Both the position numbers and the translations under genes were made by a program. Shown here piece by piece: positions 11,808 through 27,331 of a DNA stretch of 64,000 nucleotides (its first letter is position 1; each line of letters starts with the position of its first letter). The notes beneath the pieces were generated by a model. The model had not been told where the DNA came from. It made no database searches and worked only from the letters and a program-made list of their open reading frames with translations. Source of the stretch: Reyranella humidisoli (GTDB lineage: Bacteria > Pseudomonadota > Alphaproteobacteria > Reyranellales > Reyranellaceae); contig NZ_JAHOPB010000002.1 in the NCBI RefSeq assembly GCF_019039055.1, positions 620,001-684,000 on the forward strand, given 5' to 3'.

Positions 11808-13601
11808 CTATCGCCTGTCTCGTGCCCTCTGCGTCGCCGCGGGATCGATGGCGCCTTTGGCCGACACCACCACGCCATAGTCCCTGAGCGCGGTCTCGAC
11901 TGAGATCATGCCGTCGAGCACATCGTCCGCCACCTTGGCGGGATCGCGCTCCAGCGGGTTGCCGTAGCCGCCGCCGGCCGGGCCGTAGCAGACGAAGCGT
12001 CCATCCTTGCCGATGTTCATGTGCGGCACCTTCGAGGGCAGCGCGCGGTCGGCCTGGCCGGGCACCATCAGGTCGAGCCTGGCCGGCATGCCCTCGCTGC
12101 CACCGAGGAACCCCCAGGGCCGGTAACGATGGCCTTCGCCTTCGACCGAGGCGCCGCCGTCGCTCAGGAAGGCGAACTCGCGGACCGATCCCAGGCCGCC
12201 GCGCCATTTGCCGGCGCCGGCCACGTCCTCGCGCAGTTCGTAGCGCAGCACACGAAGCGGCAGGTGGGTCTCGATGTCCTCGATCGGGTTGTTGCGCGTG
12301 TTGGCGTAGAGCGTGTCGACGGCATCCATGCCGTCCTTGCCGAGGCGTCCGCCGTAGGAGCCTTCGAAGATCTCCATGTGCACCCAGTGCGTCTCGTCCT
12401 TGAGGCCGGAGAAGGCGATGACCTTGAGGTTGCCGATGCCGGCCGAGACGTTGCCCGGCATGGCCTGCGACAGCGCCTTCATCACCGTGTCGGCGAGCTG
12501 GTTGCCGGGGCAGAAGCGCGCGATGGTCGGGGCGGGGAAGGTTGGGTTGGCGAGGCAGCCCTTGGGCGCCACGATGGTGATCGGCCGCAGGAGACCCGCA
12601 TTCACGGGAATGTGGCCGTGGACTTCGGTGTCGAGCAGCACCGATCGGATGGTGAGCCAGATCGCGATGTCGGCGGTGCCCTCGAGCGGCATGTTGATCG
12701 GCCGGTCGGGCACCTGCGGCGCCGTGCCGGTCAGATCCACCACCAGGGATTCGTCCTTCTTGGTGATGGTGACGACGATCGGGAGTTCCTTCTTGGAGGG
12801 ATCGTCGCTGTCCAGATAGCCGTCGATGGCGGTCTCGGCGCGATAGATGCCGTCGGGCAGTTTGGCAATCGCCTGACGCATCAGCCGCTCGGCATGATCC
12901 ATCAGCGCGTCGCAGGCCTGCTCGAAGGTTTCGAGCCCGTAGCGTTCCACCAGTTCGACCATGCGCTCCGCGCCGATGCGGGCGGCGGCCACCTGGGCAT
13001 CCATGTCGCCGACCACGAGGTCGGAGGCGCGGATATTGTCGCGCACGATCTGCCACACCGCGTCGTTGCGGACGCCGCGGTCGTAGACCTTGATCGCCTT
13101 GAACTGCAGGCCCTCGGCATAGGCGTCGATCGCCTCGACGATGCCGCAGGAGCCGGGCGACAGCGCGCCGATGTCGAGATGATGCGCCGTCGTTGCGGCG
13201 AAGGCGATGAGCCGTCCTTGCACGAAGACAGGCACGATGAAGGCGACGTCGGGTCCGTGGCTGGCGCCGGAATAGGCATCGTTGTGCATGATGACGTCGC
13301 CGGGCCGTATCGTGTCGCCGCGCTTCTTCAGGATACGCTGGATGCCCCGCACATAGCCTGGGATCGGACCCGACTGCAGCGGCGTCGATTGCGCCGATTC
13401 GGCAAGACCTCTGCCTTCTGCGTCGACGAGGGCTGCCCCGAAATCCTCCGACTCGCGGATGATCGAGGAGTAGCTCATGCGCATCAGCTTGTAGCCCATC
13501 TCGACGGCGATATTTTCGAGCGCGCCCTGGATCACGCTACTGGTGATCGGGTCGATGCGGTCGGGCTTGGTGGCGGGCTGGCGGATGGCGGCGGTGCTCA
13601 T
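11808..13601 (-). CDS. hyuB: Hydantoinase/oxoprolinase subunit B (HyuB)
   Basis: A 597-residue B subunit of an ATP-dependent hydantoinase/5-oxoprolinase/acetone-carboxylase-like enzyme. Family blocks include the N-terminal DPITSSVIQGALENIAVEMG, the IRESEDFGAALVD segment, GDVIMHNDAYSGASHGPDV, HHLDIGALSPGS, FPAPTIARF and GGGYGNPLERDP near the end. With HyuA it cleaves a ring amide coupled to ATP hydrolysis. Its ATG overlaps the hyuA stop by four bases (ATGA), so the subunits are coupled. It converges on the SDR at 11798 with nine bases between. Which cyclic amide is used cannot be told from the subunit alone. Confidence 0.93.
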   Translation of the reverse strand: MSTAAIRQPATKPDRIDPITSSVIQGALENIAVEMGYKLMRMSYSSIIRESEDFGAALVDAEGRGLAESAQSTPLQSGPIPGYVRGIQRILKKRGDTIRPGDVIMHNDAYSGASHGPDVAFIVPVFVQGRLIAFAATTAHHLDIGALSPGSCGIVEAIDAYAEGLQFKAIKVYDRGVRNDAVWQIVRDNIRASDLVVGDMDAQVAAARIGAERMVELVERYGLETFEQACDALMDHAERLMRQAIAKLPDGIYRAETAIDGYLDSDDPSKKELPIVVTITKKDESLVVDLTGTAPQVPDRPINMPLEGTADIAIWLTIRSVLLDTEVHGHIPVNAGLLRPITIVAPKGCLANPTFPAPTIARFCPGNQLADTVMKALSQAMPGNVSAGIGNLKVIAFSGLKDETHWVHMEIFEGSYGGRLGKDGMDAVDTLYANTRNNPIEDIETHLPLRVLRYELREDVAGAGKWRGGLGSVREFAFLSDGGASVEGEGHRYRPWGFLGGSEGMPARLDLMVPGQADRALPSKVPHMNIGKDGRFVCYGPAGGGYGNPLERDPAKVADDVLDGMISVETALRDYGVVVSAKGAIDPAATQRARDRR

Positions 13602-15676
13602 TGCTTGGCCTCCTTGCGGATCATGAGATTGCCGGCCGTGTCGGCCTCGAAGCTGAAGTGTGGCGGCACGACGGTCGTGGTGTCCATCTGGAGCACGATG
13701 GCGGGGCCGGGAATGCGCTCGCCGACCGGCAGCAGGTCGCGGCGATAGAAGGTCGTGGGGTAGTCGGCGAGCTTGCCGTCGACGCGGAAGGTGCCATTGC
13801 CGAAGCTGACCGTCGCTGCTGCGAGCGAGCGGGCGCCATCGAGGACGGGTTTGGCGATGGTGGCGGCGCTGGCCGCACCCACAAGGCGCAGGTTCACGAT
13901 CTCGATCGCGGAGTCGGCGAAGTGATGGCCGTATTCCCGCTTGTGGACCTCGTGGAAGGCCTCAAAGGCCTTTGCGAGGGCAACCTCGTCGATAATCCCT
14001 TGGGGGAAGGTGACCCGGAGTTCGTAGCCCTGACCGACATAGCGCAGGTCGCCGCGTCGCTCGAACGTCACCTTGGCGAGATCGATGCCGTCGGCGGTGA
14101 AGCGCCCGGCCAGTTCCCTGGTCATGGCATCGAAGTCGGCGTTGATGCGTGCGAGATCGGCGGCGCCCGACACCTGGAAGGAGGTCCGGATGGCGTCGTA
14201 GCGCAGGTCGCTGATCAGCAGGCCGACCGCCGACGTGATGCCCGGATGCGGCGGCACGATCACCTCGGTCACGCCCAGCATGTCGGCCACTTCCGCGCCA
14301 TGCAGCGGCCCGGCACCCCCGAACGCCACCAGCGTGTAGTTGCGTGGATCGATGCCCTTCTGGACCGTGCGAGAGCGGATGGCGTTGGCCATGTTTGCGT
14401 TGATGAGCGTGATGACGCCCTCGGCGGCCTCGCGATCGGGAAGGCCGAGTTCGCGCGCCAGCTCGCCGATCACGCGACGGGCCGCGATCTCGTCGAGCGA
14501 CATGCCGCCGCCCAGGAAGTTGCCGCCGTCGAGCCGGCCCAGCACGACGTTGGCGTCGGTCACCGTGGCGCGCGTGCCGCCACGGCCGTAGGCGGCGGGG
14601 CCGGGTACGGCGCCGGCCGAGCGCGGACCGACCTTGAAGGCGCCGGCCGGGTCGACGAAGGCAATGGAACCGCCGCCGGCGCCGATCGTGTGCACGTCGA
14701 TCATGGGCACCAGCACGGGGAAGCCCGCGATCCAGGTGTCGCGCGCCGTCGCCTCGCCGAAGCCGCCTTCGGTGACGATGCCGATGTCGGCCGAGGTGCC
14801 GCCGACGTCGAAGGTGATGAGGTTGCGCTTCTCCGACAGCGCGCCGGCCCAGTCGCCGCCGATCACGCCGGCGGCCGGACCCGAGAGGAGGGTGAGCACC
14901 GGCCGCTCGGCCACCATGGCCGGCGTCGCGACGCCGCCGTTGGAGGCCATGATGCGCAGGTCGGCCTTGAAGCCCGAAGCCTCGATCTCCGATTCGAGGC
15001 GCGTCACGTAATTGCGCACCTTGGGCCCGACGAAGGCGTTCATGGCCGTCGTCGTGAAGCGCTCGAACTCGCGGAACTGCGGCGACACCGAAGAGGAGGT
15101 GGTGGCGAAACACTCCGGATACTCCTCGCGCACGATCTCCATGGCGCGCGCCTCGTGGCTGGCGTTCAGATAGGAGAAGAGGAAGCAGATCGCGATGGCC
15201 TGCACACCGGCTTCCTTGAGTTCGCGCACGGCCTGGCGCACGCCGTCCTCGTCGAGCGGCTCCAGCACCTCGCCGCGTGGCGGCACGAGGCGCTCGGTGA
15301 CAGTCTTGCGATGGCGCCGTTTCACCAGCGGCCGGTCCTGCCAGGGAATGTCCTGCATGATGGAGTAGTGCTGCGGCCGCTGATGGCGGCCGATATGCAG
15401 GATGTCGCGGTAGCCGCCGGTGGTGATCATTCCCGTCACCGCGCCGTCATGCTCGAGAATCGCGTTGGTGGCGATGGTCGTGCCGTGGAACACCGTGTCG
15501 ATCGTCTCGCGCGCGATCGAATACTTGTCGCAGAGGGCCATTAGCCCCTGCACGACGCCACGCGAGGGATCGTCCGGCGTGGTCGAGATCTTGTGCACGC
15601 CGGTGCGGCCGGCCTCGGTGTCGGCAAAGACCAGATCCGTGAAGGTGCCGCCCACGTCCACGCCGATCAACCGCAT
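13598..15676 (-). CDS. hyuA: Hydantoinase/oxoprolinase subunit A (HyuA)
   Basis: A 692-residue ATP-binding subunit of the hydantoinase A/oxoprolinase family. ATG 15676 is preceded by AAAAGGAGG and gives MRLIGVDVGGTFTDLVF, the ASKHA-type phosphate-1 motif; an upstream in-frame extension is not family-like. Other family features are FHGTTIATNAILEHDG, LLSGPAAGVIGG, ITFDVGGTSADIG, IGAGGGSIAFVD and the FGGAGPLHG motif. It is translationally coupled to hyuB and transcribed away from the ABC importer starting at 15799, with a 122-base shared promoter region. The divergent pair suggests common regulation with the importer and the ring-opening amidohydrolase downstream of it. Confidence 0.94.
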   Translation of the reverse strand: MRLIGVDVGGTFTDLVFADTEAGRTGVHKISTTPDDPSRGVVQGLMALCDKYSIARETIDTVFHGTTIATNAILEHDGAVTGMITTGGYRDILHIGRHQRPQHYSIMQDIPWQDRPLVKRRHRKTVTERLVPPRGEVLEPLDEDGVRQAVRELKEAGVQAIAICFLFSYLNASHEARAMEIVREEYPECFATTSSSVSPQFREFERFTTTAMNAFVGPKVRNYVTRLESEIEASGFKADLRIMASNGGVATPAMVAERPVLTLLSGPAAGVIGGDWAGALSEKRNLITFDVGGTSADIGIVTEGGFGEATARDTWIAGFPVLVPMIDVHTIGAGGGSIAFVDPAGAFKVGPRSAGAVPGPAAYGRGGTRATVTDANVVLGRLDGGNFLGGGMSLDEIAARRVIGELARELGLPDREAAEGVITLINANMANAIRSRTVQKGIDPRNYTLVAFGGAGPLHGAEVADMLGVTEVIVPPHPGITSAVGLLISDLRYDAIRTSFQVSGAADLARINADFDAMTRELAGRFTADGIDLAKVTFERRGDLRYVGQGYELRVTFPQGIIDEVALAKAFEAFHEVHKREYGHHFADSAIEIVNLRLVGAASAATIAKPVLDGARSLAAATVSFGNGTFRVDGKLADYPTTFYRRDLLPVGERIPGPAIVLQMDTTTVVPPHFSFEADTAGNLMIRKEAKQ

Positions 15677-15798
15677 CGCTGCCTCCTTTTGCCTGCGCTG
15701 GCCACAGGCGAGCAAGAGCCGCGCCAACGCCCTGCTGTCGCCGCCCTCCGTGCCCGGGAATTCTACAGTGCTGGCATGGGGCTTGCTTGCCACTGGGC

Positions 15799-16821
15799 AT
15801 GGCCAAGCCGCCGGACATTGAACTCGTTTCCCTGACCAAGCGCTACGGTGATACGGTGGCGGTCGATTCGATCGGCCTGCGCATCCCCGCCGGCTCCTAC
15901 TGCTGCCTGCTCGGCCCCAGCGGCTGCGGCAAGACCACGACCCTGCGCATGATCGCGGGCCACGAGGAGGTCTCCGAGGGCGACATCATCCTCGGCAGCG
16001 AGAACATCACCGTGCTCCCTCCGGCGGCACGCGGCACCGCGATGATGTTCCAGAGCTACGCGCTCTTTCCGCATCTCGATTGCACCGAAAATGTAGCCTT
16101 CAGCCTCAAGATGCGCGGCGTCGACAGGGAGACGCGCCGGTCCCGCGCGCTCGACATGCTGAAGCGTGTCCACATGGAGGCCTATGCCGGGCGCCTGCCG
16201 TCGCAACTCTCGGGCGGCCAGCAGCAGCGCGTGGCGCTGGCGCGGGCGCTGATCACCGATCCGCAGGTCCTGTTGCTCGACGAGCCGCTGTCGGCGCTCG
16301 ATCCCTTCCTGCGCATCCGGATGCGGGAGGAACTGAAGAGCCTGCAGACGCGGCTGGGCATCAGCTTCATTCATGTGACCCATAGCCAGGACGAGGCGAT
16401 GGCGCTGGCCGATCTCGTCGTGGTGATGAACGGCGGCAGGATCGAGCAGGCAGCGCCGCCGCGTGAAGTCTTCAACAGGCCGGCCTCCGCCTTCGTCGCC
16501 AAGTTCATCGGCGGCCACAACGTGCTGCCCGCGGCCGTCGCTCGCGCAGGCGCGGGCGAGGGGCCGTTCGTCGCCATCCGCGCCGACCGGATGTCTGTGC
16601 AGGCGGGCACTTCGGGAGAGGCCGGCGTCACGTCGCTGCAGGGCGTGACGCGCTCCGTCGAATATCTCGGGTCGACCGTGCAGGTCGGCATCGATGTCAC
16701 CGGGCTCGAAACGCTGTCGGCCACGCTGTCCGAGGCGCGCTTCGATGCTTCGCCGGTGCGGCCCGGCGAGCCCGTCATTCTGTCGTGGAAACCCGAGGAC
16801 GTTCACGTGCTGGGACGTTGA
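15799..16821 (+). CDS. ABC transporter ATP-binding protein, spermidine/putrescine (PotA) type
   Basis: A 340-residue ATPase of the CUT1/PotA-like importers. Walker A GPSGCGKTT, Q-loop FQSYALFPH, signature LSGGQQQRVALARAL, Walker B VLLLDEPLSALD and the H-loop HVTHSQDEAMALAD are complete. A C-terminal TOBE-like regulatory domain follows (about residues 245-340). ATG 15799 begins MAKPPDIELVSLTKRYG; a TTG four codons upstream is the only alternative. It is the first gene of the set ATPase, receptor, two permeases, ring-opening amidohydrolase and PLP enzyme. Confidence 0.94.
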   Translation: MAKPPDIELVSLTKRYGDTVAVDSIGLRIPAGSYCCLLGPSGCGKTTTLRMIAGHEEVSEGDIILGSENITVLPPAARGTAMMFQSYALFPHLDCTENVAFSLKMRGVDRETRRSRALDMLKRVHMEAYAGRLPSQLSGGQQQRVALARALITDPQVLLLDEPLSALDPFLRIRMREELKSLQTRLGISFIHVTHSQDEAMALADLVVVMNGGRIEQAAPPREVFNRPASAFVAKFIGGHNVLPAAVARAGAGEGPFVAIRADRMSVQAGTSGEAGVTSLQGVTRSVEYLGSTVQVGIDVTGLETLSATLSEARFDASPVRPGEPVILSWKPEDVHVLGR

Positions 16822-16873
16822 GGGGTCGTTGAGGGAGACGGCCCCGCGCCGTCGCAGTTGAAGGAGGAACGAG

Positions 16874-18163
16874 ATGGCTCGGAAATCGAATGGCGGCATC
16901 GGCCGTCGCAGGATGCTCAAGGGCGCGGCTGGCATCGCGGGCGCGGCCGTCGGCAGCGGCGCGATCACCGGCTTTCCGGTGATCTGGGCCCAGAACAACA
17001 AGAACATCGTTCTGCGCCAATGCGGTACCGGCGTGTCGGCGATCAACGAGATCGCGGAGAAGTGCAAGGCCGATCTCGGCATCACGCTCCAGATGACGGC
17101 GTTGGACTCCGACGCCGTCGTGCAGCGCGTCGTGACGCAGCCCAACTCATTCGACATCGGCGACATCGAATACTGGATGATCAAGAAGGTCTTCCCGGCC
17201 AACACGCTGCAGGCGATGGACGTGAAGAAGATCAAGCTGTTCGACAAGATCGTGCCGATCTTCACCACCGGCAAGCTGAAGGCCGACAGCGTCATCGCCC
17301 AGGGCACGGCGCCGAGCACCGTCAGCTTCGTGGAAGGCGCGGGCTCGACCAAGTTCGCCAAGGGCCAGACCCAGTGGTTCACCGCGGTTCCGACGATCTA
17401 CAACGCCGACACGCTGGGCATCCGTCCCGACCTGGTCGGCCGCAAGATCGAGAACTGGAAGGACATTCTCGATCCGAAGTTCAAGGGCAAGACCTCGATC
17501 CTGAACATCCCGTCGATCGGCATCATGGACGCCGCGATGATCTGCGAATCGGCCGGCATCGTGAAGTACGGCGACAAGGGCAACATGACCAAGGCGGAGA
17601 TCGACAAGACCATCGATTTCCTGATCAAGACCAAGAAGGAGGGGCAGTTCCGTGCTTTCTGGAAGACCTTCGACGAATCGGTCAACCTGATGACCTCGGG
17701 CGAAGTCGTGATCCAGTCGATGTGGTCGCCGGCCGTCTCCGCCGTGCGCGGCAAGGGCGTGCCCTGTGTCTATCAGCCCCTGAAGGAAGGCTATCGCGCC
17801 TGGGGCGGCGGTCTGTCGCTGGCCAAGCATCTGCAGGGCGCGCAACTCGACGCCGCCTATGACTACATCAACTGGTACCTGTCGGGCTGGGTGGGCGCGT
17901 TCCTCAATCGCCAGGGCTACTACTCGGCGGTGCTGGACACGGCCAAGGCCAACATGACGGCCGACGAGTGGGGTTTCTGGATGGAAGGCAAGCCCGCCCA
18001 GGGCGACATCAAGAACCCGCAGGGCCAGGTCGTCGAGAAGGCCGGCGCGGTACGCGACGGTGGATCGTTCTACGACCGCATGGGGGCCGTCGCCTGCTGG
18101 AACGCGGTGATGGATGAGGACCGTTACATGGTCCAGAAGTGGAACCAGTTCATCGCGGCCTGA
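16874..18163 (+). CDS. ABC transporter periplasmic substrate-binding protein, PotD-like with Tat signal
   Basis: A 429-residue extracellular solute-binding protein. It begins with a twin-arginine signal (GRRRMLKGAAGIAGAAVG) and an A-Q cleavage region about 40 residues in. The fold-defining stretches FTAVPTIYNADTLGI, WKDILDPKFKGKTSILN and WGGGLSLAKH match the PotD/spermidine-putrescine-like cluster. AAGGAGGAACGAG precedes ATG 16874. The ligand is unknown; the amidohydrolase and hydantoinase genes around it suggest a small N-rich ring compound rather than a polyamine. A strong inverted-repeat element follows before the permease gene. Confidence 0.92.
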   Translation: MARKSNGGIGRRRMLKGAAGIAGAAVGSGAITGFPVIWAQNNKNIVLRQCGTGVSAINEIAEKCKADLGITLQMTALDSDAVVQRVVTQPNSFDIGDIEYWMIKKVFPANTLQAMDVKKIKLFDKIVPIFTTGKLKADSVIAQGTAPSTVSFVEGAGSTKFAKGQTQWFTAVPTIYNADTLGIRPDLVGRKIENWKDILDPKFKGKTSILNIPSIGIMDAAMICESAGIVKYGDKGNMTKAEIDKTIDFLIKTKKEGQFRAFWKTFDESVNLMTSGEVVIQSMWSPAVSAVRGKGVPCVYQPLKEGYRAWGGGLSLAKHLQGAQLDAAYDYINWYLSGWVGAFLNRQGYYSAVLDTAKANMTADEWGFWMEGKPAQGDIKNPQGQVVEKAGAVRDGGSFYDRMGAVACWNAVMDEDRYMVQKWNQFIAA

Positions 18164-18183
18164 AGTCGAAGCCCCTTCATATT

Positions 18184-18274
18184 CCTCTCCCCCGTTAGGG
18201 GGAGAGGTTAGGTGAGGGGGCGAGTCGAAGTGCGTAACCCCCTCACCCATCCTCTTCCCCTGGCGGGGGAGAGG
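18184..18274. repeat. Intergenic palindromic repeat (three nested stem-loops)
   Basis: This 91-base element is a large inverted repeat built from three stems: 18184-18207 (10-bp stem, loop GTTA), an outer 10-bp stem GGTGAGGGGG/CCCCCTCACC (18211-18220 with 18238-18247), and 18251-18274 (10-bp stem with one mismatch). The C-rich/G-rich arms resemble the REP-like palindromes scattered in alphaproteobacterial genomes. It sits between the binding-protein gene and the permease gene, a place where stem-loops protect upstream mRNA from 3' decay. Its last arm supplies GAGGGG, the likely ribosome site of the permease gene. Confidence 0.85.
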
Positions 18275-18285
18275 GGTAAGCAGTG

Positions 18286-19140
18286 ATGAACCGCGTAAAA
18301 GTCTGGGTCACCTATCTGCAGGTCGCGCCGCTCGCGCTGGTGTTCCTGCTGTTCCTCATCGTCCCGATCGCGACGATCGTGGTGGTGAGCTTCTTCGACT
18401 ACAACACGACCCAGATCATCCCGGCCTTCCTGCTGCAGAACTATGAGGAGCTGCTGCTCTCGTCGGTCACGTGGCGCACCTACCAGCAGACCCTCCAGTT
18501 CGCCATCATCACCTGGGCGCTCACCCTGCTGATCGGCTTCACCGTCGCCTACTTCGTGGCCTTCCATGTGCGCTCGTCCACGATGCAGACGGTGCTGTTC
18601 CTGCTCTGCACCATCCCGTTCTGGACCTCGAACGTCATCCGCATGATCTCGTGGATCCCGTTCCTCGGCCGCCACGGGCTCGCCAACACCACGCTGATGA
18701 ACCTCGGCCTGATCAACCAGCCGCTCGAATTCCTGCTCTATTCCGACTTCTCGGTCGTGCTGGCGTATGTGCACCTCTACACGCTGTTCATGGTGGTGCC
18801 GATCTTCAACTCGATGATGCGCATCGACCGCAGCCTGCTCGAAGCGGCGCGCGATGCCGGTGCGACCGGCTGGCAGACGCTGGTCAACGTAATCCTCCCG
18901 TTGTGCAAGCCGGGCATCGCCATCGGCTCGATCTTCGTGGTCACCATCGTCATGGGCGACTTCGTCACCGTGCGGATGATGAGCGGCGGGCTCAGTGCCT
19001 CGGTCGGCCTGATGATGGCGAACGCCATGTCGCTGCTGCAGTATCCGGCCGCCGCGGCCAATGCGGTCGTGCTGCTGCTGCTGGTACTCGGTATCGTCGC
19101 GGCCATGATGCGCATGGTCGACATCCGCAAGGAGCTGTGA
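18286..19140 (+). CDS. ABC transporter permease, PotB-like
   Basis: A 284-residue inner-membrane permease with about six helices. The binding-protein-dependent transport (EAA) loop reads EAARDAGATGWQTLVNVILPLCKPGI. ATG 18286 is directly preceded by an in-frame GTG (18283), either of which could start; the ribosome site GAGGGG comes from the end of the repeat element. It is followed one base later by the second permease. Together they form the membrane channel of the importer begun by the ATPase at 15799. Confidence 0.92.
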   Translation: MNRVKVWVTYLQVAPLALVFLLFLIVPIATIVVVSFFDYNTTQIIPAFLLQNYEELLLSSVTWRTYQQTLQFAIITWALTLLIGFTVAYFVAFHVRSSTMQTVLFLLCTIPFWTSNVIRMISWIPFLGRHGLANTTLMNLGLINQPLEFLLYSDFSVVLAYVHLYTLFMVVPIFNSMMRIDRSLLEAARDAGATGWQTLVNVILPLCKPGIAIGSIFVVTIVMGDFVTVRMMSGGLSASVGLMMANAMSLLQYPAAAANAVVLLLLVLGIVAAMMRMVDIRKEL

Positions 19141-19141
19141 C

Positions 19142-19984
19142 GTGCAGCACGGCAAGCGCGGTCCTGCCTTCTGGCTCCTCGGCGCCTTTTTCTGCCTGTT
19201 CGTGCTGTTTCTCTACGGGCCGACGCTGACGATTCTGATCCTGTCGTTCCAGGGACCGTCGGGCGGGCTCACCTTCCCGATGAACGGCGTGTCGCTGCAC
19301 TGGTTCAGGAACCTTTTCGAGAAACAGATGGTGGGCGACTTCGCGGGCTCGCTGCAGCGCTCCCTTCTGCTGGGCGTGGCCGTCATGCTGGTGACCGTCG
19401 TCGCGTCCTTCTCGGCGGGCCTCGCCTTCCGCTCGCGCTTCCGCGGTTCGGGCATCCTCTTCTATCTCGCCATCGCCAGCCTGATCGTGCCTTCGATTCT
19501 GATCAGCCTCGGCATCGGCCTGCTGTATCGCGTGTTGGGCTGGGATCCTGCCTGGTACAGTTCCGCCTTCGGTGCGCATCTGACGTGGACGCTGCCGTTC
19601 GGCCTGCTGATCATGTTCGCCGTCTTCAACCGGTTCGATCGCCGCTACGAGGAGGCCGCGCGCGATCTCGGCGCGACCTCGTGGCAGACGATCCGGCATG
19701 TCGTCGTTCCGATCCTGCTGCCCAGCCTGATCGGCGTCGGCCTTTTCGGCTTCACGCTGTCCTACGATGAGTTCGCCCGCAGCCTCTATACGGCGGGCAC
19801 CTTCAACACCCTGCCGCTGGAGATCTACGGCATGACGACCAACGTGACGACGCCCGTGCTCTACGCTCTCGGGACCGTGACGACGGGCGTCTCGTTCGTC
19901 GTGATCGCCCTGTCGCTTCTGTCCGTTACCTGGCTTCGCCGACGCCGCGCGCGCCATGGCAGCGATGCCGGAAAGGCTGCTTGA
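19142..19984 (+). CDS. ABC transporter permease, PotC-like
   Basis: A 280-residue permease starting at GTG 19142, one base after the stop of the first permease. It has six hydrophobic segments and the EAA motif [42 protein letters not shown], whose final SYDEF stretch is typical of PotC-like subunits. It forms a heterodimer with the preceding permease. The gene for the ring-opening amidohydrolase begins two bases after its stop, showing a single operon. Confidence 0.93.
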
Positions 19985-19986
19985 GA

Positions 19987-21051
19987 ATGACCCGTCGAAC
20001 CAGGGTGTTGCGCCTTCCGACCGCCGGCCCACAGGATACGGCGCCGCTCGCCGCCGCCATCGCGGCAGGCGACGTCGACGCCAGGAGCATCGTGGCCATC
20101 GTCGGCAAGACCGAGGGCAATGGTTGCGTCAACGATTTCACCCGGGGCTACGCCACGCTGGCGCTGAAGCTGTTGCTGGCGGAGTCGCTGAACTGTCCGC
20201 TCGCGGAGATCGAGAAGCGGGTTGCCATCGTCATGTCGGGCGGCACCGAAGGCGGGCTGTCGCCGCATCTGCTGATCTTCTGTCGCGAGGAGGTGTCGTC
20301 GCCCGCTCCGGCAGGACCGCGGCTCGCCATTGGCGTCGGCCTGACGCGGCCCTTCAAGCCCGAGGAGATCGGCCGGGCGGCGCAGATCGAGGATACGGCA
20401 ACGGCGGTGACGCTGGCTCTCAGGGACGCCGGTATTTCCGGGCCTTCCGACGTGCATTTCGTGCAGATCAAGTGTCCGCTGCTGACCAAGGAGCGGATCG
20501 AGGAAGCGGCCCGCCGTGGCGCTGTGACGGCCACCGCCGATACCTATCATTCGATGGCCCTGTCGCGCGGTGCCTCGGCGCTGGGTGTCGCCCTGGCGCT
20601 CGGCGAGATCGGGGAGGCGCCGGAAGAGGCGGTCTGCAAGGACTGGTCCCTGTTCTCGCGTGTTGCCAGCACGTCGGCGGGCGTCGAGCTGCTGCGCAAC
20701 GAGATCGTGGTGTTGGGCAATGCAACGGGCTGGGCGGGCGATCTCGTGATCGGCCACGATGTCATGAGCGATGCCATCGACGCCGACGCCGCGCGGCGCG
20801 TGCTGGCGAACCTCGGCGGGGAGACGGTCGCGGTGCTGGCCAAGGCCGAGGCCTCGCCGACCGGCGAGATCCGCGGCCGGCGGCATACGATGCTGGACGA
20901 CAGCGACATCCATTCGACCCGCCATGCGCGCGCCCTCGTGGGCGGTGTGCTGGCCGGCGCGATCGGCGACACGATGCTCTACGTCTCCGGTGGCGCCGAG
21001 CACCAGGGCCCGGCCGGCGGCGGCCCCATCGCGATCATTGGGCGGGTCTGA
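19987..21051 (+). CDS. Ring-opening amidohydrolase (barbiturase / cyanuric acid amidohydrolase family)
   Basis: A 354-residue member of the rare AtzD/barbiturase family, which hydrolyses cyanuric acid or barbituric acid rings. The fold has three homologous domains, each giving one Ser-Lys pair. All are visible: Lys41 (VGKTEGNG) with Ser84 (MSGGTEGG), Lys162 (QIKCPLL) with the Ser in SRGASALG (about 193-197), and Lys286 (LAKAEAS) with Ser334 ([10 protein letters not shown]). ATG 19987 lies two bases after the permease stop; a TTG two codons earlier would overlap it. Barbiturase and cyanuric acid hydrolase cannot be separated by eye. The gene is the clearest clue to the substrate of this operon. 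Confidence 0.93.
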
Positions 21052-21073
21052 TCGGCTGGGCTAAGCTCGCCGC

Positions 21074-22264
21074 ATGAGCGAGACGAATCCCTACGAACTT
21101 CTCGGCGTGCGCCGGCGCATCAATGCCGCCGGCGCCCTGACGCGGCTGGGCGGCGCGGTGATGGCGCCCGAAGTCGTGGCCGCCATGGCCGCAGCGTCGC
21201 GGGCCTCGGTCGACATCGGCGAACTCCAGGACGCCGCCAGCCTGCGTATCGCCGAAGCGACGGGCGCCGAGGCGGGGCTCGTCACGACCGGTGCGGCGGC
21301 GGCGCTCACGCTTGCGGCGGCGGCCACGATCGCGCGCTGGGACATCGCGAAGATGGCGGCGCTTCCTCATGCCGGGGCGTTCCCCCACGACATCCTGATC
21401 CCGCGTACCCAGCGGACCGGTTACGCTCATGCTCTTGCCGCTTCCGGGGCTCGGCTCGTCGACATCGGCCACAACGATCGTGGCACCGGCGCGGGCGTGC
21501 GCGGCCTCGAGGCCTGGGAGATCGAAACGGCGATCACGCCGTCGGTAGTGGCGATGGCCTTCTCGGTCAATACCGGCAGCATCGTCGACCTGCCGACCGC
21601 CATCGCGACCTGCCGCGCCAACGGCATTCCGCTGATCGTCGATGCGGCGGCGCAGCTTCCACCGAAGGAGAACCTGCGGCGCTTCATCGACATGGGCGTC
21701 GATCTGGTCGCCTTCTCCGGAGGCAAGGCGCTGGGCGGGCCGCAGGCTTCGGGCATCCTCGCCGGCCGGCGCGACCTCGTGGCCTCGGCCTTGCTGCAGC
21801 AGCTCGACATGGACGTGGCGCCCGATACCTGGACGCCACCCAGGCTGGTCGATCGCGCCAATCTGCGCGGCGTGCCGCATCATGGGATCGGTCGCGGCTT
21901 CAAGGCCGGCAAGGAGGAGATCGTCGGACTGCTCGTGGCGCTGGAGCGCTTTGTGAAGGCCGACGATGCCGCTGCCAACGCGGCATTGCAGTCGCGGCTG
22001 GAAGCGATCGCGGCATCGTTGAGCGGCTTCGACGTGAAGCTCCTGCCCGCCACACAGACTGGCCGCGTACCGGTCCTGGAAATCACCGTGGCCGACGCGC
22101 TCGCCGTCAGCGCGAGGCTGCAGCGCGGCGACCCGCCGGTTCACCTGTCGGAGCGGCACGCCGCGCGGGGCGTGCTCACGCTCGATCCCCAGGTCCTGCT
22201 GCCCGAGCACGATGAGCCGCTGGCGGCGGCGCTTCGTGAGACGCTTCAGTCGACCGTGGCCTGA
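21074..22264 (+). CDS. SelA-like PLP-dependent enzyme
   Basis: A 396-residue fold-type I PLP enzyme of the SelA/DgaE-like group (L-seryl-tRNA selenium transferase-like, but found in many bacteria as catabolic lyases or aldolases). It opens YELLGVRRRINAAGALTRLGG, has GLVTTGAAAALTLA, the cofactor Asp190 in IVDAAAQ, and the Schiff-base Lys218 in FSGGKALGGPQASG. No selenocysteine context is seen nearby, so a role in C-N or C-C bond cleavage of a ring-opening product is inferred. It lies 22 bases after the amidohydrolase, and its 3' end overlaps the convergent ABC ATPase gene by 19 bases. Confidence 0.87.
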   Translation: MSETNPYELLGVRRRINAAGALTRLGGAVMAPEVVAAMAAASRASVDIGELQDAASLRIAEATGAEAGLVTTGAAAALTLAAAATIARWDIAKMAALPHAGAFPHDILIPRTQRTGYAHALAASGARLVDIGHNDRGTGAGVRGLEAWEIETAITPSVVAMAFSVNTGSIVDLPTAIATCRANGIPLIVDAAAQLPPKENLRRFIDMGVDLVAFSGGKALGGPQASGILAGRRDLVASALLQQLDMDVAPDTWTPPRLVDRANLRGVPHHGIGRGFKAGKEEIVGLLVALERFVKADDAAANAALQSRLEAIAASLSGFDVKLLPATQTGRVPVLEITVADALAVSARLQRGDPPVHLSERHAARGVLTLDPQVLLPEHDEPLAAALRETLQSTVA

Positions 22265-23355
22265 CCGTCGTCCCGGTAGGCCCAGCAGCTGTCGGGCGGC
22301 AGGGTGAGTGCGACCTCGCCGTCGTTGTGACGGGCCGCCGTGCCGAGTTCCAGCACTTCGACTTTCTGTCCGCCGAACTCGACGTCGTAGATGGTCTGCA
22401 TGCCCTGATAACGCCGCTCGATCACCTTTCCCGTGAAGCTGTTGGCCGGGCCACGCTCGCCGAGGCGGATGTTCTCGGCGCGCAGCGCGACATGGGCATT
22501 GTCGCCGGCTGCAAGAGGCTGCGGCGTCCAGGCTTCGATGCGGCCGGCAGCGCCCAGGTCGATGACGACCTGCTCGCCCTTGCGCTCCAGCACCTTGCCC
22601 TTGAGCACGTTTGCGGCGCCCGTGAAGTTGGCGACGAACGAATCAGCCGGCCTGTTGTAGATTTCGCCCGGCGGCGCCATCTGCAGCAGCTTGCCGTCCT
22701 TCATGACGCCGATCCGGTCGCCCAGCACCACGGCCTCGGACTGATCGTGCGTCACGTATAGGCCGGTCATGCCGGTCATCTTCAGGATGCGGCGCAACTC
22801 GTCGCGCAGGCGGATGCGCAACTTGGAATCGAGATTGGACAGGGGCTCGTCGAGCAGCAGCAGCTGCGGCCGGTAGACGAGGCTGCGCGCCAGCGCGACG
22901 CGCTGCATCTGCCCGCCCGACAGCGACGTCACGGGCCGCTGGGCGTATTCGCCGAGGCCGACCAGCTCAAGCGTCTCGCGGACCTTGGTGTCGATGTCGG
23001 CGCTGCCGCTGGTGTTCTTGCGGCGATACTTCAGCGGATAGGCGACGTTCTGGTGCACCGTCATGTGCGGCCACACCGCATAGGACTGGAAAACCATGCC
23101 GATGTCGCGTTCGCGCGGGCTCACCAGCGTGCCGCGTTCTGGTTCCGACACGACGCGGCCGCCGATCGAGATGCGGCCGCCGGTCGGATGTTCGAGGCCG
23201 GCGACGCAGCGGAGCGTCGTGGTCTTGCCGCAGCCCGAAGGCCCCAGCAGAACCACGATCTCGCCCGCCGGCACGTCGAAGTTCACGCCATCGACGGCCG
23301 CCTTGCCGGTCCCGAACTTCTTGACCAGGTTCTCGACGAGGAGCGCAGCGCTCAC
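22246..23355 (-). CDS. ABC transporter ATP-binding protein, FbpC/PotA type
   Basis: A 369-residue importer ATPase. Walker A GPSGCGKTT, FQSYAVWPHM, signature LSGGQMQRVALARSL, Walker B LLLLDEPLSNLD and YVTHDQSEAVVLGD are complete, with a C-terminal TOBE-type domain. The start is GTG 23355, whose GTGA overlaps the stop of the upstream receptor gene by four bases; this overlap decides the start because no ATG fits. The operon order is permease, receptor, ATPase on the minus strand. The 3' end overlaps the convergent SelA-like gene by 19 bases. Confidence 0.93.
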   Translation of the reverse strand: MSAALLVENLVKKFGTGKAAVDGVNFDVPAGEIVVLLGPSGCGKTTTLRCVAGLEHPTGGRISIGGRVVSEPERGTLVSPRERDIGMVFQSYAVWPHMTVHQNVAYPLKYRRKNTSGSADIDTKVRETLELVGLGEYAQRPVTSLSGGQMQRVALARSLVYRPQLLLLDEPLSNLDSKLRIRLRDELRRILKMTGMTGLYVTHDQSEAVVLGDRIGVMKDGKLLQMAPPGEIYNRPADSFVANFTGAANVLKGKVLERKGEQVVIDLGAAGRIEAWTPQPLAAGDNAHVALRAENIRLGERGPANSFTGKVIERRYQGMQTIYDVEFGGQKVEVLELGTAARHNDGEVALTLPPDSCWAYRDDGQATVD

Positions 23356-24380
23356 TGGCGGTACCCGTAGGTCTTGTTCCACTCTTCCATCCACGAGTTG
23401 CGCAGCTTGCTGAACTCGTCGAACTTCGGCACCCAGACCTTGACGACCTTGGGATCCCAGCCCTTCGGGTAGGCCGGCGGCTCCTTGAGGGACGTGATGT
23501 TGCCCAGCTTGTTGATCATGAAGGTCTGGCCTTCCTTGGAGAGGCGCCAGTTCATGAACAGCTTGGCGGCGTTCGGGTTCTTGGAAGCCTTGGTGACGCC
23601 GTCGGCGTAGGGAACGATGGGGACGCCCTCGGGGGCGAAGATCGCCTCGGCCGGGGCGCCCTCGACGATCTTGGTGTAGATGATGTTGTACAGCAGCGGG
23701 GCGATCGACACCTCGCCGCGGACCAGCGCGTCCGAGAGCGGAGCGCCCGACGGATAGAGAGCGATGCCGAGTTCGGCCTGCTTCTTCCAGTAATCCTCGC
23801 CGAGCACCTGACGCTCGAACATGATGCGGGTCCAGGTCGTGCCGCCCGACGGCCCGATCACCTGGCCGATCTGCTTGTTCTTGTACTCGGGCTTCGTGAG
23901 ATCCATCCACGTCTTGGGCGCGTTCTTCACGAGCTGCGTATTGTAGGCGATCGCCCAGCCCAAGGTGACGCCGGGCCACAGCTTCGGCGAGACCAGCGAG
24001 TCGGGGCGATAGTCGGCAGCGTTCGGCGGCGCGTAATCCTGGAAGAGATCGGCGATATCCAGCATCAGGCCGCGGTCGGAATGGTTGACGACGTCGGCAC
24101 CGAGTTTGTCGGCCGCGGCTTCCGTCTTGATGCGGGTGATGAGCTGGCCGCCGGGCGCACGGACCATCGCGACCTTGATCTTAGGGAAGCGCTTGTTGAA
24201 TTCCTTGATCACTTCCTGCTGCGTCTCGGCGAAGTCCGCCGTGTACAGGGTCAGTCCGCCTTCCTTTTCGGCGGCGGCGATCAGCTCCTTGGAGCCGAAC
24301 TGGTCCTGCTGGGCCCGGGCGGGGAGCGCGGCGGTTGCGGCGGCGCCGGCAATGCCGGCCAGGACGGTTCTACGCTTCAT
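23352..24380 (-). CDS. ABC transporter substrate-binding protein, iron/thiamine (FbpA-like) type
   Basis: A 342-residue periplasmic receptor. ATG 24380 is preceded by GGAGGAATGAGAAG and gives MKRRTVLAGIAGAAATAALPARAQQ, a signal peptide with an ARA-Q cleavage site. Segments LTLYTADFAETQQEVIKEFNKRFP, LGWAIAYNTQLVKNAPKTWMDL and GVPIVPYADGVTKASKNPNAAKLFMNW match the FbpA/AfuA-like cluster. These bind ferric iron, but many soil paralogues bind phosphonates, sugars or thiamine; the paired tyrosines of iron binders were not verified. Translation of the ATPase gene is coupled to its stop codon. Confidence 0.91.
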   Translation of the reverse strand: MKRRTVLAGIAGAAATAALPARAQQDQFGSKELIAAAEKEGGLTLYTADFAETQQEVIKEFNKRFPKIKVAMVRAPGGQLITRIKTEAAADKLGADVVNHSDRGLMLDIADLFQDYAPPNAADYRPDSLVSPKLWPGVTLGWAIAYNTQLVKNAPKTWMDLTKPEYKNKQIGQVIGPSGGTTWTRIMFERQVLGEDYWKKQAELGIALYPSGAPLSDALVRGEVSIAPLLYNIIYTKIVEGAPAEAIFAPEGVPIVPYADGVTKASKNPNAAKLFMNWRLSKEGQTFMINKLGNITSLKEPPAYPKGWDPKVVKVWVPKFDEFSKLRNSWMEEWNKTYGYRQ

Positions 24381-24409
24381 CTTCTCATTCCTCCGATTGT
24401 TGTCGTTCG

Positions 24410-26173
24410 TCAGCCGGCGCGGGCGCTGCTCTCGGCAGCTCCGCGGGAAAGCCAGGTCGTGATGCCGAGCAGCACCGCGAGAATCACGGTCTGCACGAGA
24501 CTGAAGGCGGCCGTCTTGCCGACGTTTCCGCCTTCGTAATAGTCGAGCAGCAGCACGGCCATCACGGTCGTGTCGCTGGTGTAGAGGAACAGGGACGAGC
24601 CCAGTTCGCGCACCGACAGCACGAACAGCAGCGTCATCGAGGCGACGATGCCCGGCCGGGCGAGCGGCACCATGATCGTGCCGATCGTGCTGAGCAGGCC
24701 ACGGCCGCAGATCCAGGCGGCTTCCTCGAGCTCGCGGTGGATCTGCATGAACGAGGTCGACAGCGCCTTGACCGTGTCGGGGATGAAGCGCGCCACGAAG
24801 GCCAGCGCCAGGATCCAGATCGTGCCGTAGAGGCCACCCGGCAGGCCGATCCAGGCCCAGAGATAGGCGACGCCGACGACCAGGCCGGGGATGGCGACCG
24901 GGATCGTCGACAGGAGATCGATGATCTTGCGGCCGGGAACCTGCGTGCGGTTGATCGTGTAACCGATGGCGAAGGCCAGTATGCCGCCGACCACGGCGGT
25001 GATCACGCCGACCTTCATCGTGTTCCAGATGGAGGTCATCGTCAGAGGGTTGTCGAAGATGGAGTTGAAGTGAACCCAGCTGTACGCCTTCATGTCGAAC
25101 ACGGCGTCGAAGTCCTTGAAGAACAGGAACCGGCGGAAGGCCGCGATTACCAGGGCGATCGTGGGCAGCACCACGACGATGAAGAGGTAGGCGAGAGCCA
25201 GGCTGAAGGTGAACCAGCGCCACGGCCCGAGGTTGAGGCTGCGCGGGCGGAAGGCCTTGCCGGCCACGGTGGCGAAGCTGCGGCCCGACAGCACGCGTTG
25301 CTGCGCCCAGACGAAGACCGCCGTGACCATCATCAGCAGGATCGCGACGGCGGCGGCGGTATTGTAGAGAGGCGGGCTCCAGGCGGTGAGCTTGAAAATG
25401 TAGGTCGTGAGCACGCTGATGTTGGCCGGCGCGCCCAGAGCGGCGGGAATGCCATAGATGCCAAGCATCACGACGAAGGACAGCAGCGAACCCGCGAGGA
25501 TCGCCGGCGCGATCAGCGGGAAGGTGACCGTGAAGAGGGTCGTGAAGGCCGAGGCGCCCGAAACCTCGGACGCTTCCTCGAGGCTGGGGTCCATGTTGCG
25601 CAGCGCCGACGCCGTGAACATGTAAACGTAAGGCGCATAGTAGAAGCCGAAGACCAGGATCAGGCCCGACATCGAGTAGAAGTCGAAGCGGAAATCGATA
25701 CCGATCCACTTCAGCGCCGTATTCAGCAGGCCGGTCTTGGGCGAGCCGAGGATGCTCCAGGCGACGCCCGCGACCAGCGGCGGCACGAACAGCGGGATCA
25801 TGCTGGCGCCGGCGATGAAGCCCTTGAACGGCGTGTTCGTGCGCACGACGATCCACGAAAAGGCGAGGCCGATCACGACGGCGAGGATGGTTCCGCCGCC
25901 GCAGGCCGCCAGTGCATTGAAGAAGGCCAGCCGGACATTCTCGTTGCCCAACACGGCCAGGAAGTGCTCCAGCGAGGGATTGAACTTGCCGAAGCCGTCG
26001 ATCACCGGATTGGAATCGCTGATGGCGCCGAAGAACAGCATCAGCAGAGGGTAGATGACCAGGAACGTCAGGATGAGCAGAAGGGCGCCGACCCACAACG
26101 GCACGGCGAACCGGCGCGCGATGGGCGCGGCGTCTGTCGTTACAGGCAAAGCGGCAGCACTCGTCGCCGTCAA
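24410..26173 (-). CDS. ABC transporter permease with two fused permease domains (FbpB/ThiP type)
   Basis: A 587-residue inner-membrane protein made of two tandem permease modules, each with about six helices and an EAA loop: EEASEVSGASAFTTLFTVTFPLIAPAI in the first half and EEAAWICGRGLLSTIGTIMVPLARPGI in the second. The start is TTG 26173, eight bases after GGAGGAA; there is no ATG with comparable support. It is the first gene of the minus-strand importer (permease, receptor, ATPase), 29 bases ahead of the receptor gene. Fused permeases are typical of iron(III) and thiamine importers. Confidence 0.93.
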   Translation of the reverse strand: MTATSAAALPVTTDAAPIARRFAVPLWVGALLLILTFLVIYPLLMLFFGAISDSNPVIDGFGKFNPSLEHFLAVLGNENVRLAFFNALAACGGGTILAVVIGLAFSWIVVRTNTPFKGFIAGASMIPLFVPPLVAGVAWSILGSPKTGLLNTALKWIGIDFRFDFYSMSGLILVFGFYYAPYVYMFTASALRNMDPSLEEASEVSGASAFTTLFTVTFPLIAPAILAGSLLSFVVMLGIYGIPAALGAPANISVLTTYIFKLTAWSPPLYNTAAAVAILLMMVTAVFVWAQQRVLSGRSFATVAGKAFRPRSLNLGPWRWFTFSLALAYLFIVVVLPTIALVIAAFRRFLFFKDFDAVFDMKAYSWVHFNSIFDNPLTMTSIWNTMKVGVITAVVGGILAFAIGYTINRTQVPGRKIIDLLSTIPVAIPGLVVGVAYLWAWIGLPGGLYGTIWILALAFVARFIPDTVKALSTSFMQIHRELEEAAWICGRGLLSTIGTIMVPLARPGIVASMTLLFVLSVRELGSSLFLYTSDTTVMAVLLLDYYEGGNVGKTAAFSLVQTVILAVLLGITTWLSRGAAESSARAG

Positions 26174-26433: not shown

Positions 26434-27324
26434 ATGGAACTCAAGACGCACAATCGTTATGCCTACGCACCCCTGCGGGGCCGCGCGGACTACACCTGGC
26501 CGGCTGGCCGACGGCTCGCGGTCTACTTTGCCCTCAACCTCGAGCATTTTTCCTACGGCGAGGGGCTTGGTGCGGAACTGGCGCCTGGTGGTCCGCACCC
26601 CGACGTCCTCAATTATGCTTGGCGCGATTATGGCAATCGCGTCGGCGCCTGGTACATGCTCGAGGCCTTCGATGCCTTGCGGCTGCCGATGGCCGCTTTG
26701 GTCAACAGCGCGATGTACGACTATGCGCCGGACCTAGTCGCAGCCTGCCGGGCGCGCGGCGACGAGATCGTGGGCCATGGCCGTACCAATGCCGAGCGAC
26801 AGGGCGTGCTCGACGAAACGGGCGAGCGGGCCCTCATTCGCGATGCGACGGCGCGGCTGGCGGAGGCCGAAGGCCACCCGCCGGAGGGCTGGCTCGGACC
26901 GTGGATCTCCCACAGCCACGTCACGCCCGATCTGCTGGCCGAAGCGGGGTATCGCTACCTGCTGGACTGGTGCATGGACGACCAGCCCATCTGGTTCCGT
27001 TGCCGCGACGACAAGCGCATCCTCGCGATGCCCTACCCGCAGGAAGTAAACGACATTCCGCAGATCGTGGGCCGCAAGATCGGCGGCGACGCATTCGCTG
27101 ACATCATCGTCGACCAGTTCGACGAGATGCTGGAACTGTCGCGGGAGCGGCCGCTGGTGATGGGCATTGCGCTTCATGCCTACATCGTGGGCCAGCCGCA
27201 CCGGCTGCGGCATCTCAAGCGCGCACTTCGCCATATCGCCCGACATCGCGACTCGATATGGCTGACAACGCCCGGCGCCATCGCCCGGCATTGCGCTTCT
27301 CTTCCCGACGGCATCGTCCCCTAG
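26434..27324 (+). CDS. Polysaccharide-deacetylase-family (PuuE-like) hydrolase
   Basis: A 296-residue protein of the NodB-like deacetylase superfamily, in the branch that includes PuuE allantoinases and related cyclic-imide hydrolases. Visible features are the N-terminal RLAVYFALNLEHF, WRDYGNRVGAWYMLEAFD, the metal-site region IVGHGRTNAERQG, GWLGPWISHSHVTPDLLAEAGYRYLLDWCMDDQP, and HAYIVGQPHRLRHL near the end. It starts at ATG 26434 in a 260-base gap divergent from the ABC permease, and seven bases before the M81 peptidase gene, so the two are co-transcribed. Likely substrates are N-acyl or cyclic amide compounds. Confidence 0.85.
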   Translation: MELKTHNRYAYAPLRGRADYTWPAGRRLAVYFALNLEHFSYGEGLGAELAPGGPHPDVLNYAWRDYGNRVGAWYMLEAFDALRLPMAALVNSAMYDYAPDLVAACRARGDEIVGHGRTNAERQGVLDETGERALIRDATARLAEAEGHPPEGWLGPWISHSHVTPDLLAEAGYRYLLDWCMDDQPIWFRCRDDKRILAMPYPQEVNDIPQIVGRKIGGDAFADIIVDQFDEMLELSRERPLVMGIALHAYIVGQPHRLRHLKRALRHIARHRDSIWLTTPGAIARHCASLPDGIVP

Positions 27325-27331
27325 GAGCACC

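Follow-up and report, generated by a model that had tools for sequence, protein, structure and literature searches.

Organisation of the locus

The window considered here, the whole 64,000-nucleotide stretch of Reyranella humidisoli DNA that was analysed (contig NZ_JAHOPB010000002.1, positions 620,001 to 684,000), carries genes for an ATP-dependent hydantoinase, HyuAB, that run divergently from an ATP-binding cassette (ABC) importer operon ending in atzD, the gene for a predicted cyanuric acid hydrolase (CAH). On the minus strand, hyuB (11808..13601) and hyuA (13598..15676) overlap by 4 bases and encode the beta and alpha subunits of the hydantoinase. On the plus strand, beyond a divergent gap of 122 bases (15677-15798), lie the genes for a potA-type ATPase (15799..16821; ABC_tran and TOBE_2 domains, PotA/PhnT2-like and under the NCBIfam cut-offs), for a substrate-binding protein with an SBP_bac_8 domain (sbp, 16874..18163) and for two BPD_transp_1 permeases named from NCBIfam, perm1 (PotB/H-like, 18286..19140) and perm2 (PotC-like, 19142..19984). 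Two bases separate perm2 from atzD (19987..21051), the single gene of its family in the genome. The next plus-strand gene (21074..22264, hereafter dgaE) encodes a DgaE/SelA-like pyridoxal phosphate (PLP) enzyme with weak Pfam SelA and Aminotran_5 matches, and this neighbour was judged to lie outside the module.

A sequence-only reading of the same DNA had already given these gene positions and families, together with three Ser-Lys pairs in the amidohydrolase, the 2-base junction and the 122-base gap, and all of these were confirmed. The order hyuBA<>potABCD-atzD was kept in the Reyranella-group loci long enough to show the arrangement, which is therefore not due to chance, and this gene-neighbourhood comparison bears out the conserved uptake and ring-opening module that had been proposed. 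In some relatives further genes (HNH-type, glyoxalase, dioxygenase and others) separate atzD from dgaE; they varied from genome to genome and gave no consistent pathway signal.

The amidohydrolase AtzD

By sequence, the amidohydrolase is identified as a CAH and not a barbiturase, because it passes the NCBIfam CAH equivalog NF052395 (524.3 bits, cut-off 360) and because its scores against solved structures, its position in a tree and its active site agree with this assignment. The protein, which matches Pfam Amido_AtzD_TrzD at 504 bits, shares 57-62% identity with four crystallised CAHs (Moorella, TrzD, Pseudomonas sp. ADP and Azorhizobium), and PDB chains of CAHs scored 371-443 bits against 274 for barbiturase (5hwe). 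All three Ser-Lys-Arg sets are present (K41/S84/R53, K162/S230/R194 and K286/S334/R312), and Arg194 aligns with Arg188 of the Azorhizobium CAH, a position occupied by Gln in barbiturases; neither of the two enzymes accepts the substrate of the other (PMC4051656). In a maximum-likelihood tree of CAHs that included no barbiturase sequence, the Reyranellaceae proteins formed the sister group of the TrzD/Moorella/ADP group (92/95), with the Azorhizobium CAH outside both, and the closest named relatives of the window protein were those of Reyranella and its relatives.

A barbiturase serving pyrimidine breakdown would be in keeping with the common protein family and with the ability of HyuA-like proteins to act as ring amidases, but it is scarcely credible given the Arg in place of Gln, the low 5hwe score, the nesting among CAHs and the presence of BiuH and AtzF genes in the genome; on the first three of these points the barbiturase assignment was ruled out. 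The AtzD/barbiturase family named in the sequence-only reading thus stands, and the phylogeny, the scores and Arg194 narrow it to CAH.

Several other AtzD-family loci were encountered. The proteins of loci L194 and L199, which form a separate long branch, carry Asn at the position of Arg194 instead of either the Arg of CAHs or the Gln of barbiturases, and perhaps act on another substrate; in genome G203, two diverged AtzD-family genes with adjoining ABC importer genes are separated by about 2 kb (locus L192). In Moorella, Chloroflexi, Enterococcus, Melaminivora and enterobacterial plasmids, AtzD adjoins FdrA/DUF1116 (oxamate carbamoyltransferase-like) genes (L033, L034, L037, L041, L043, L046, L049, L055, L058 and L087), and carbamate kinase and an NCS2 transporter are often encoded there too, perhaps as an ATP-yielding route from cyanuric acid. 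The AtzD-NCS2-FdrA block of L087 (NZ_CP042536.1), on a Citrobacter IncA plasmid, is flanked by IS26 copies, and many clinical and shower-drain enterobacterial plasmids carry AtzD genes with a nearly identical match.

Remaining genes of the cyanuric acid pathway

By homology, the genome holds the full gene set leading from cyanuric acid to ammonia, with atzD in the window and the remainder at two other loci. The first (L182) comprises an AtzG-like open reading frame, AtzE and AtzH, divergent from AtzF; identities to the Pseudomonas sp. ADP proteins are 55% for AtzE, 60% for AtzH and 49% for AtzF, and the latter exceeds the cut-off of the allophanate hydrolase model TIGR02713 at 746 bits. The second (L181) is an operon without atzD that encodes BiuH, a BMP-type ABC importer and a second cysteine hydrolase. 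This BiuH is 76% identical to the Rhizobium leguminosarum enzyme and keeps its catalytic triad and biuret-binding residues, 13 of 13 checked active-site positions that include D36, K142, C175, K145 and Q215; Gln215 and Lys145 are among the biuret-binding residues (PMC5806882). The statement in the earlier reading that no described pathway has this combination therefore fails for the AtzD half, which is the described cyanuric acid pathway with its other genes elsewhere in the genome.

The pathway genes also tend to occur together. Across 61 Reyranellaceae genomes compared by Fisher tests that were uncorrected for relatedness, BiuH (at least 70% identity, fragments included) was found in 25 of the 38 AtzD-positive genomes against 3 of the 23 AtzD-negative ones; the corresponding figures were 35/38 against 11/23 for AtzF above its cut-off and 34/38 against 3/23 for hyuA.

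Predicted sigma-54 promoters

The divergent gap contains two predicted sigma-54 promoters placed back to back. The one directed toward hyuA, TGGCGCGGCTCTTGCT (15711..15726, minus strand), is followed by about 35 bases up to the hyuA start, and an AGGAGG ribosome site lies in between; for the one directed toward potA, TGGCATGGGGCTTGCT (15772..15787, plus strand), the distance from its end to the potA start is about 12 bases. With so short a distance to the start codon and no recognisable ribosome-binding site in it, the potA mRNA may be leaderless. The strict pattern TGGCN7TTGC was present in 34 of 35 distinct orthologous gaps on the potA side and in 33 of 35 on the hyuA side, against approximately 0.1 per strand in shuffled sequence, and many of these gaps otherwise share little sequence. 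The proposal that hyuA/hyuB and the importer operon share one promoter region is thus borne out by two conserved sites.

In 104 kb of sequence from the same genome (the window, L181 and L182), the fuller sigma-54 consensus occurs in only three places, two in the divergent gap and one upstream of atzG, and a slightly looser element lies upstream of the BiuH operon. Additionally, of 17 importer operons scanned across the class, 9 have a sigma-54-type site ahead of potA, and so has that of Polaromonas. Sigma-54 together with NtrC drives many nitrogen-scavenging operons; a literature search for NtrC control of cyanuric acid genes returned nothing relevant.

HyuAB and the importer outside Reyranella

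HyuA has the complete set of Pfam domains (PF05378, PF01968 and PF19278; the Hydantoinase_A score is 304 bits) and is encoded together with HyuB (PF02538, Hydantoinase_B, 504.6 bits). The best PDB match of both subunits is N-methylhydantoinase 7hk5 (E 3e-140 for HyuB); for HyuA, E was 1.4e-201 against 1.8e-113 for 6yra and 3.9e-87 for acetophenone carboxylase. By these comparisons, HyuAB is closest to N-methylhydantoinase among solved structures, ahead of oxoprolinase, caprolactamase and the carboxylase.

A class-wide survey of 385 Alphaproteobacterial genomes placed HyuAB and the importer in a common context. Relatives of the importer binding protein occur in 39 further genomes of this sample, namely in 15 of the 19 non-Reyranellaceae genomes with a close HyuB against 24 of the 363 without HyuB. 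In 13 of 20 loci examined, a hydantoin/allantoin racemase family gene follows the importer genes, and in 14 of 20 a racemase of this kind or an N-carbamoyl-amino-acid-hydrolase-like gene lies near hyuAB. None of these carbamoylase-like and racemase-like neighbours reached a specific NCBIfam equivalog, and we take their names from PDB relatives and general knowledge of the families. At locus L255, importer, racemase, PuuE, GNAT and hyuAB genes form one operon without atzD, in which PuuE allantoinase exceeds its cut-off. The association of HyuAB with the importer is separate from, and older than, that with atzD.

Near-complete hydantoin pathways were also noted, with hyuAB beside an M20-type carbamoylase/allantoate amidohydrolase and a carbamoylase-like nitrilase at L283 and L284, and beside an M20 enzyme and a racemase at L286.

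Within the Reyranellaceae, PuuE allantoinase exceeds its cut-off in 56 of 61 genomes and is uninformative as a discriminating partner, because it is present whatever the AtzD state; N-carbamoylase is present in 61 of 61 and, being found in all of them, supports the possibility only. The window itself has, at 26434-28804, a PuuE-like polysaccharide deacetylase gene (117 bits, cut-off 425); next come genes for an M81-type metallopeptidase-like protein and for a dipeptide-type ABC importer.

Gain and loss of the module genes

The two ring amidases are gained and lost separately. The importer occurs with hyuAB and without atzD in genomes G402 and G387 (loci L165 and L166), and with atzD and without adjoining hyuAB in G388, G393 and G417 (L170, L172 and L174). 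Since each is found with the importer alone, each amidase is dispensable to the other. Moreover, their class-wide partners differ: HyuAB is accompanied by hydantoin/allantoin racemase and N-carbamoyl-amino-acid hydrolase, AtzD by BiuH, AtzE and AtzF. Because HyuAB co-occurs with the importer and adjoins racemases and carbamoylases across the class, the likeliest arrangement is parallel action, with HyuAB and AtzD each opening ring ureides of its own and one importer serving both.

This pattern contradicts the claim of the sequence-only reading that the two ring amidases act in series. A pathway in which AtzD and HyuAB successively open one as yet unnamed cyclic imide, and the SelA-like enzyme cleaves the product, would account for the adjacency of all the genes here and in many Reyranella genomes, but it is very improbable, because each amidase occurs with the importer in the absence of the other (L165, L166 and L174), because dgaE is independent of both, and because the substrates of CAHs and barbiturases are not interchangeable (PMC4051656) and AtzD has a CAH active site.

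The independence of dgaE rests on several genomes. In G401, G403, G419 and G431, dgaE lies between the same flanking genes, with LLM and SDR genes on one side and a second ABC importer on the other, without hyuAB, importer or atzD of the present type; at the same time, several module-positive genomes have no dgaE. In G412, the last 29 codons of hyuB are joined to the last 51 codons of atzD and everything between them is deleted; an intact dgaE adjoins the scar, and the SDR gene lies across from it, so that the hyuBA-importer-atzD block disappeared in one piece and dgaE stayed. Because dgaE is kept without the module, missing from genomes with it and preserved in the G412 deletion, it is judged from these comparisons to be a gene of the flanking locus and not a module member. 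The suggestion that the PLP enzyme cleaves the opened product does not survive this gain and loss pattern, and the enzyme was ruled out as a pathway step.

In relatives that lack the module, the second ABC importer (22246-26104 in the window; ATPase, binding protein and fused permease, convergent to dgaE) is part of this flanking locus. Haloarchaeal megaplasmids (L083 and L084) encode DgaE-like proteins with 46-51% identity to that of the window; their neighbours there are RidA-family, mandelate-racemase-family and glucose dehydrogenase genes, a setting that would suit an ammonia lyase. M81 peptidase and ABC importer genes also lie near a DgaE-like gene of a Mesorhizobium plasmid (L082).

The importer and cyanuric acid

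In loci L170 and L172, from another genus of the Reyranellaceae, atzD is placed after the last permease gene and ahead of a GNAT-racemase pair. In view of this insertion position and of the class-wide association of HyuAB, importer and racemase, atzD looks like an addition to a pre-existing ring-ureide importer operon. Such an addition may be read in two ways. In the first, the importer serves HyuAB only, for hydantoins or allantoin, and AtzD is an inserted passenger, with cyanuric acid entering otherwise, for example through the BMP-type ABC importer of the BiuH operon. The class-wide occurrence of the importer alongside racemase and HyuAB, for the most part in the absence of AtzD, the position of atzD in L170 and L172, and the ABC importer carried by the BiuH operon itself, as in R. 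leguminosarum, all speak for this passenger status. We nevertheless regard it as unlikely, though worth keeping in view, because AtzD stays directly after perm2 throughout the group, because importer and atzD are still together where hyuAB has gone from the locus (L170, L172 and L174), and because a non-sister AtzD lineage adjoins the same importer family in Polaromonas. There, on plasmid pE10SP1, an AtzD of a different branch is encoded divergently beside an importer whose binding protein is 59% identical over 410 residues, an association that by analogy favours cyanuric acid as an importer ligand. The importers that adjoin AtzD in Alloalcanivorax and Betaproteobacteria were considered as members of the same family and rejected, since protein comparison showed them to be TauABC-type.

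In the second reading, which we prefer, the importer carries cyanuric acid as well, and the whole is probably a nitrogen-scavenging locus for small cyclic ureides. The gene identities, the presence of the pathway genes, the promoters and the mosaic gain and loss are read from the sequence; from these we infer what the importer carries, which substrate HyuAB uses and that nitrogen status governs the locus. The importer, whose family is elsewhere accompanied by hydantoin/allantoin racemases, would take up ring ureides including cyanuric acid, which AtzD would hydrolyse to carboxybiuret/biuret. AtzGEH/AtzF and BiuH, encoded elsewhere in the chromosome, would convert these to allophanate, ammonia and CO2. 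In parallel to AtzD, HyuAB would use ATP to open a hydantoin-type ring, yielding an N-carbamoyl amino acid to be handled by carbamoylases encoded elsewhere. The hyuBA, importer-atzD, atzGEH and biuH operons, all with sigma-54 sites, would probably be co-induced by nitrogen limitation.

Several points weigh against this interpretation. The importer family is mostly found without AtzD, and cyanuric acid may therefore not be its ligand; CAHs elsewhere are accompanied by other importers (TauABC or BMP type), and a PDB search with the binding protein gave weak PotD-type matches only and no clue to the ligand. Thirteen of the 38 AtzD genomes have no clear BiuH, and the co-occurrence counts may reflect relatedness. 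AtzGEH is weaker evidence for the pathway than BiuH, because such clusters are often found without AtzD (PMC6219798). Finally, ligand, activity and expression are all predicted from sequence.

A broader and more tentative reading, possible but rather doubtful at present, is that the importer and HyuAB represent an undescribed sigma-54-controlled ring-ureide salvage system of Alphaproteobacteria to which the Reyranellaceae added a CAH, giving one importer and two ring amidases. Racemase and carbamoylase would be part of this system, and its HyuAB may open the ring of allantoin or a hydantoin at the expense of ATP.

Comparison with known systems

Cyanuric acid is a widespread pollutant and a residue of pool chemicals, and to our knowledge its cellular importer has not been settled; the locus supplies a testable candidate. 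It also leads to the prediction that the scattered AtzD, HyuAB, AtzGEH and BiuH genes form one nitrogen-starvation regulon. The joining of a rare enzyme to an existing uptake operon helps to explain how pollutant pathways are assembled, and the poorly characterised HyuA/HyuB enzymes gain a class-wide context. The kinds of components are known (CAH, ATP-dependent hydantoinase and PotABCD-type importer), and our verdict is that known systems are combined here in a new way, probably under regulation of the nitrogen type. As far as we know, the shared locus, the candidate importer and a scattered pathway joined by sigma-54 promoters are new; a literature search found no paper linking Reyranella to cyanuric acid.

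Among described systems, the atzDGEHF genes of Pseudomonas sp. ADP (plasmid pADP-1) correspond to an AtzD 57% identical to that of the window and to AtzE, AtzH and AtzF homologues present in one genome, whereas the Reyranella atzD is unlinked from atzGEH/atzF and sits in an importer operon divergent from hyuAB, and the atzG resemblance is weak. The pRL10 operon of Rhizobium leguminosarum 3841 encodes BiuH, AtzD, a BMP-type ABC importer, formamidase and a second cysteine hydrolase. L181 shares with it BiuH (at the 76% identity given above), the second cysteine hydrolase (71%) and the identical ABC type and order, but in Reyranella atzD lies in the window and not in the BiuH operon, and the formamidase gene is missing beside BiuH.

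HyuAB resembles hydantoin utilisation systems and N-methylhydantoinase in its best match, 7hk5, and in having orthologues beside a racemase or carbamoylase, but neither gene adjoins hyuAB in the window, the carbamoylase homologues being elsewhere in the genome. Caprolactamase CapA/CapB belongs to the same superfamily and its NCBIfam models are matched, but at 548 and 284 bits against cut-offs of 1000. The PLP enzyme, for its part, shares with DgaE (D-glucosaminate-6-phosphate ammonia lyase) the PLP family and Lys218 in SGGKAL, but stays below the cut-offs of both the DgaE model (155 bits against 600) and the subfamily model (149 against 385).

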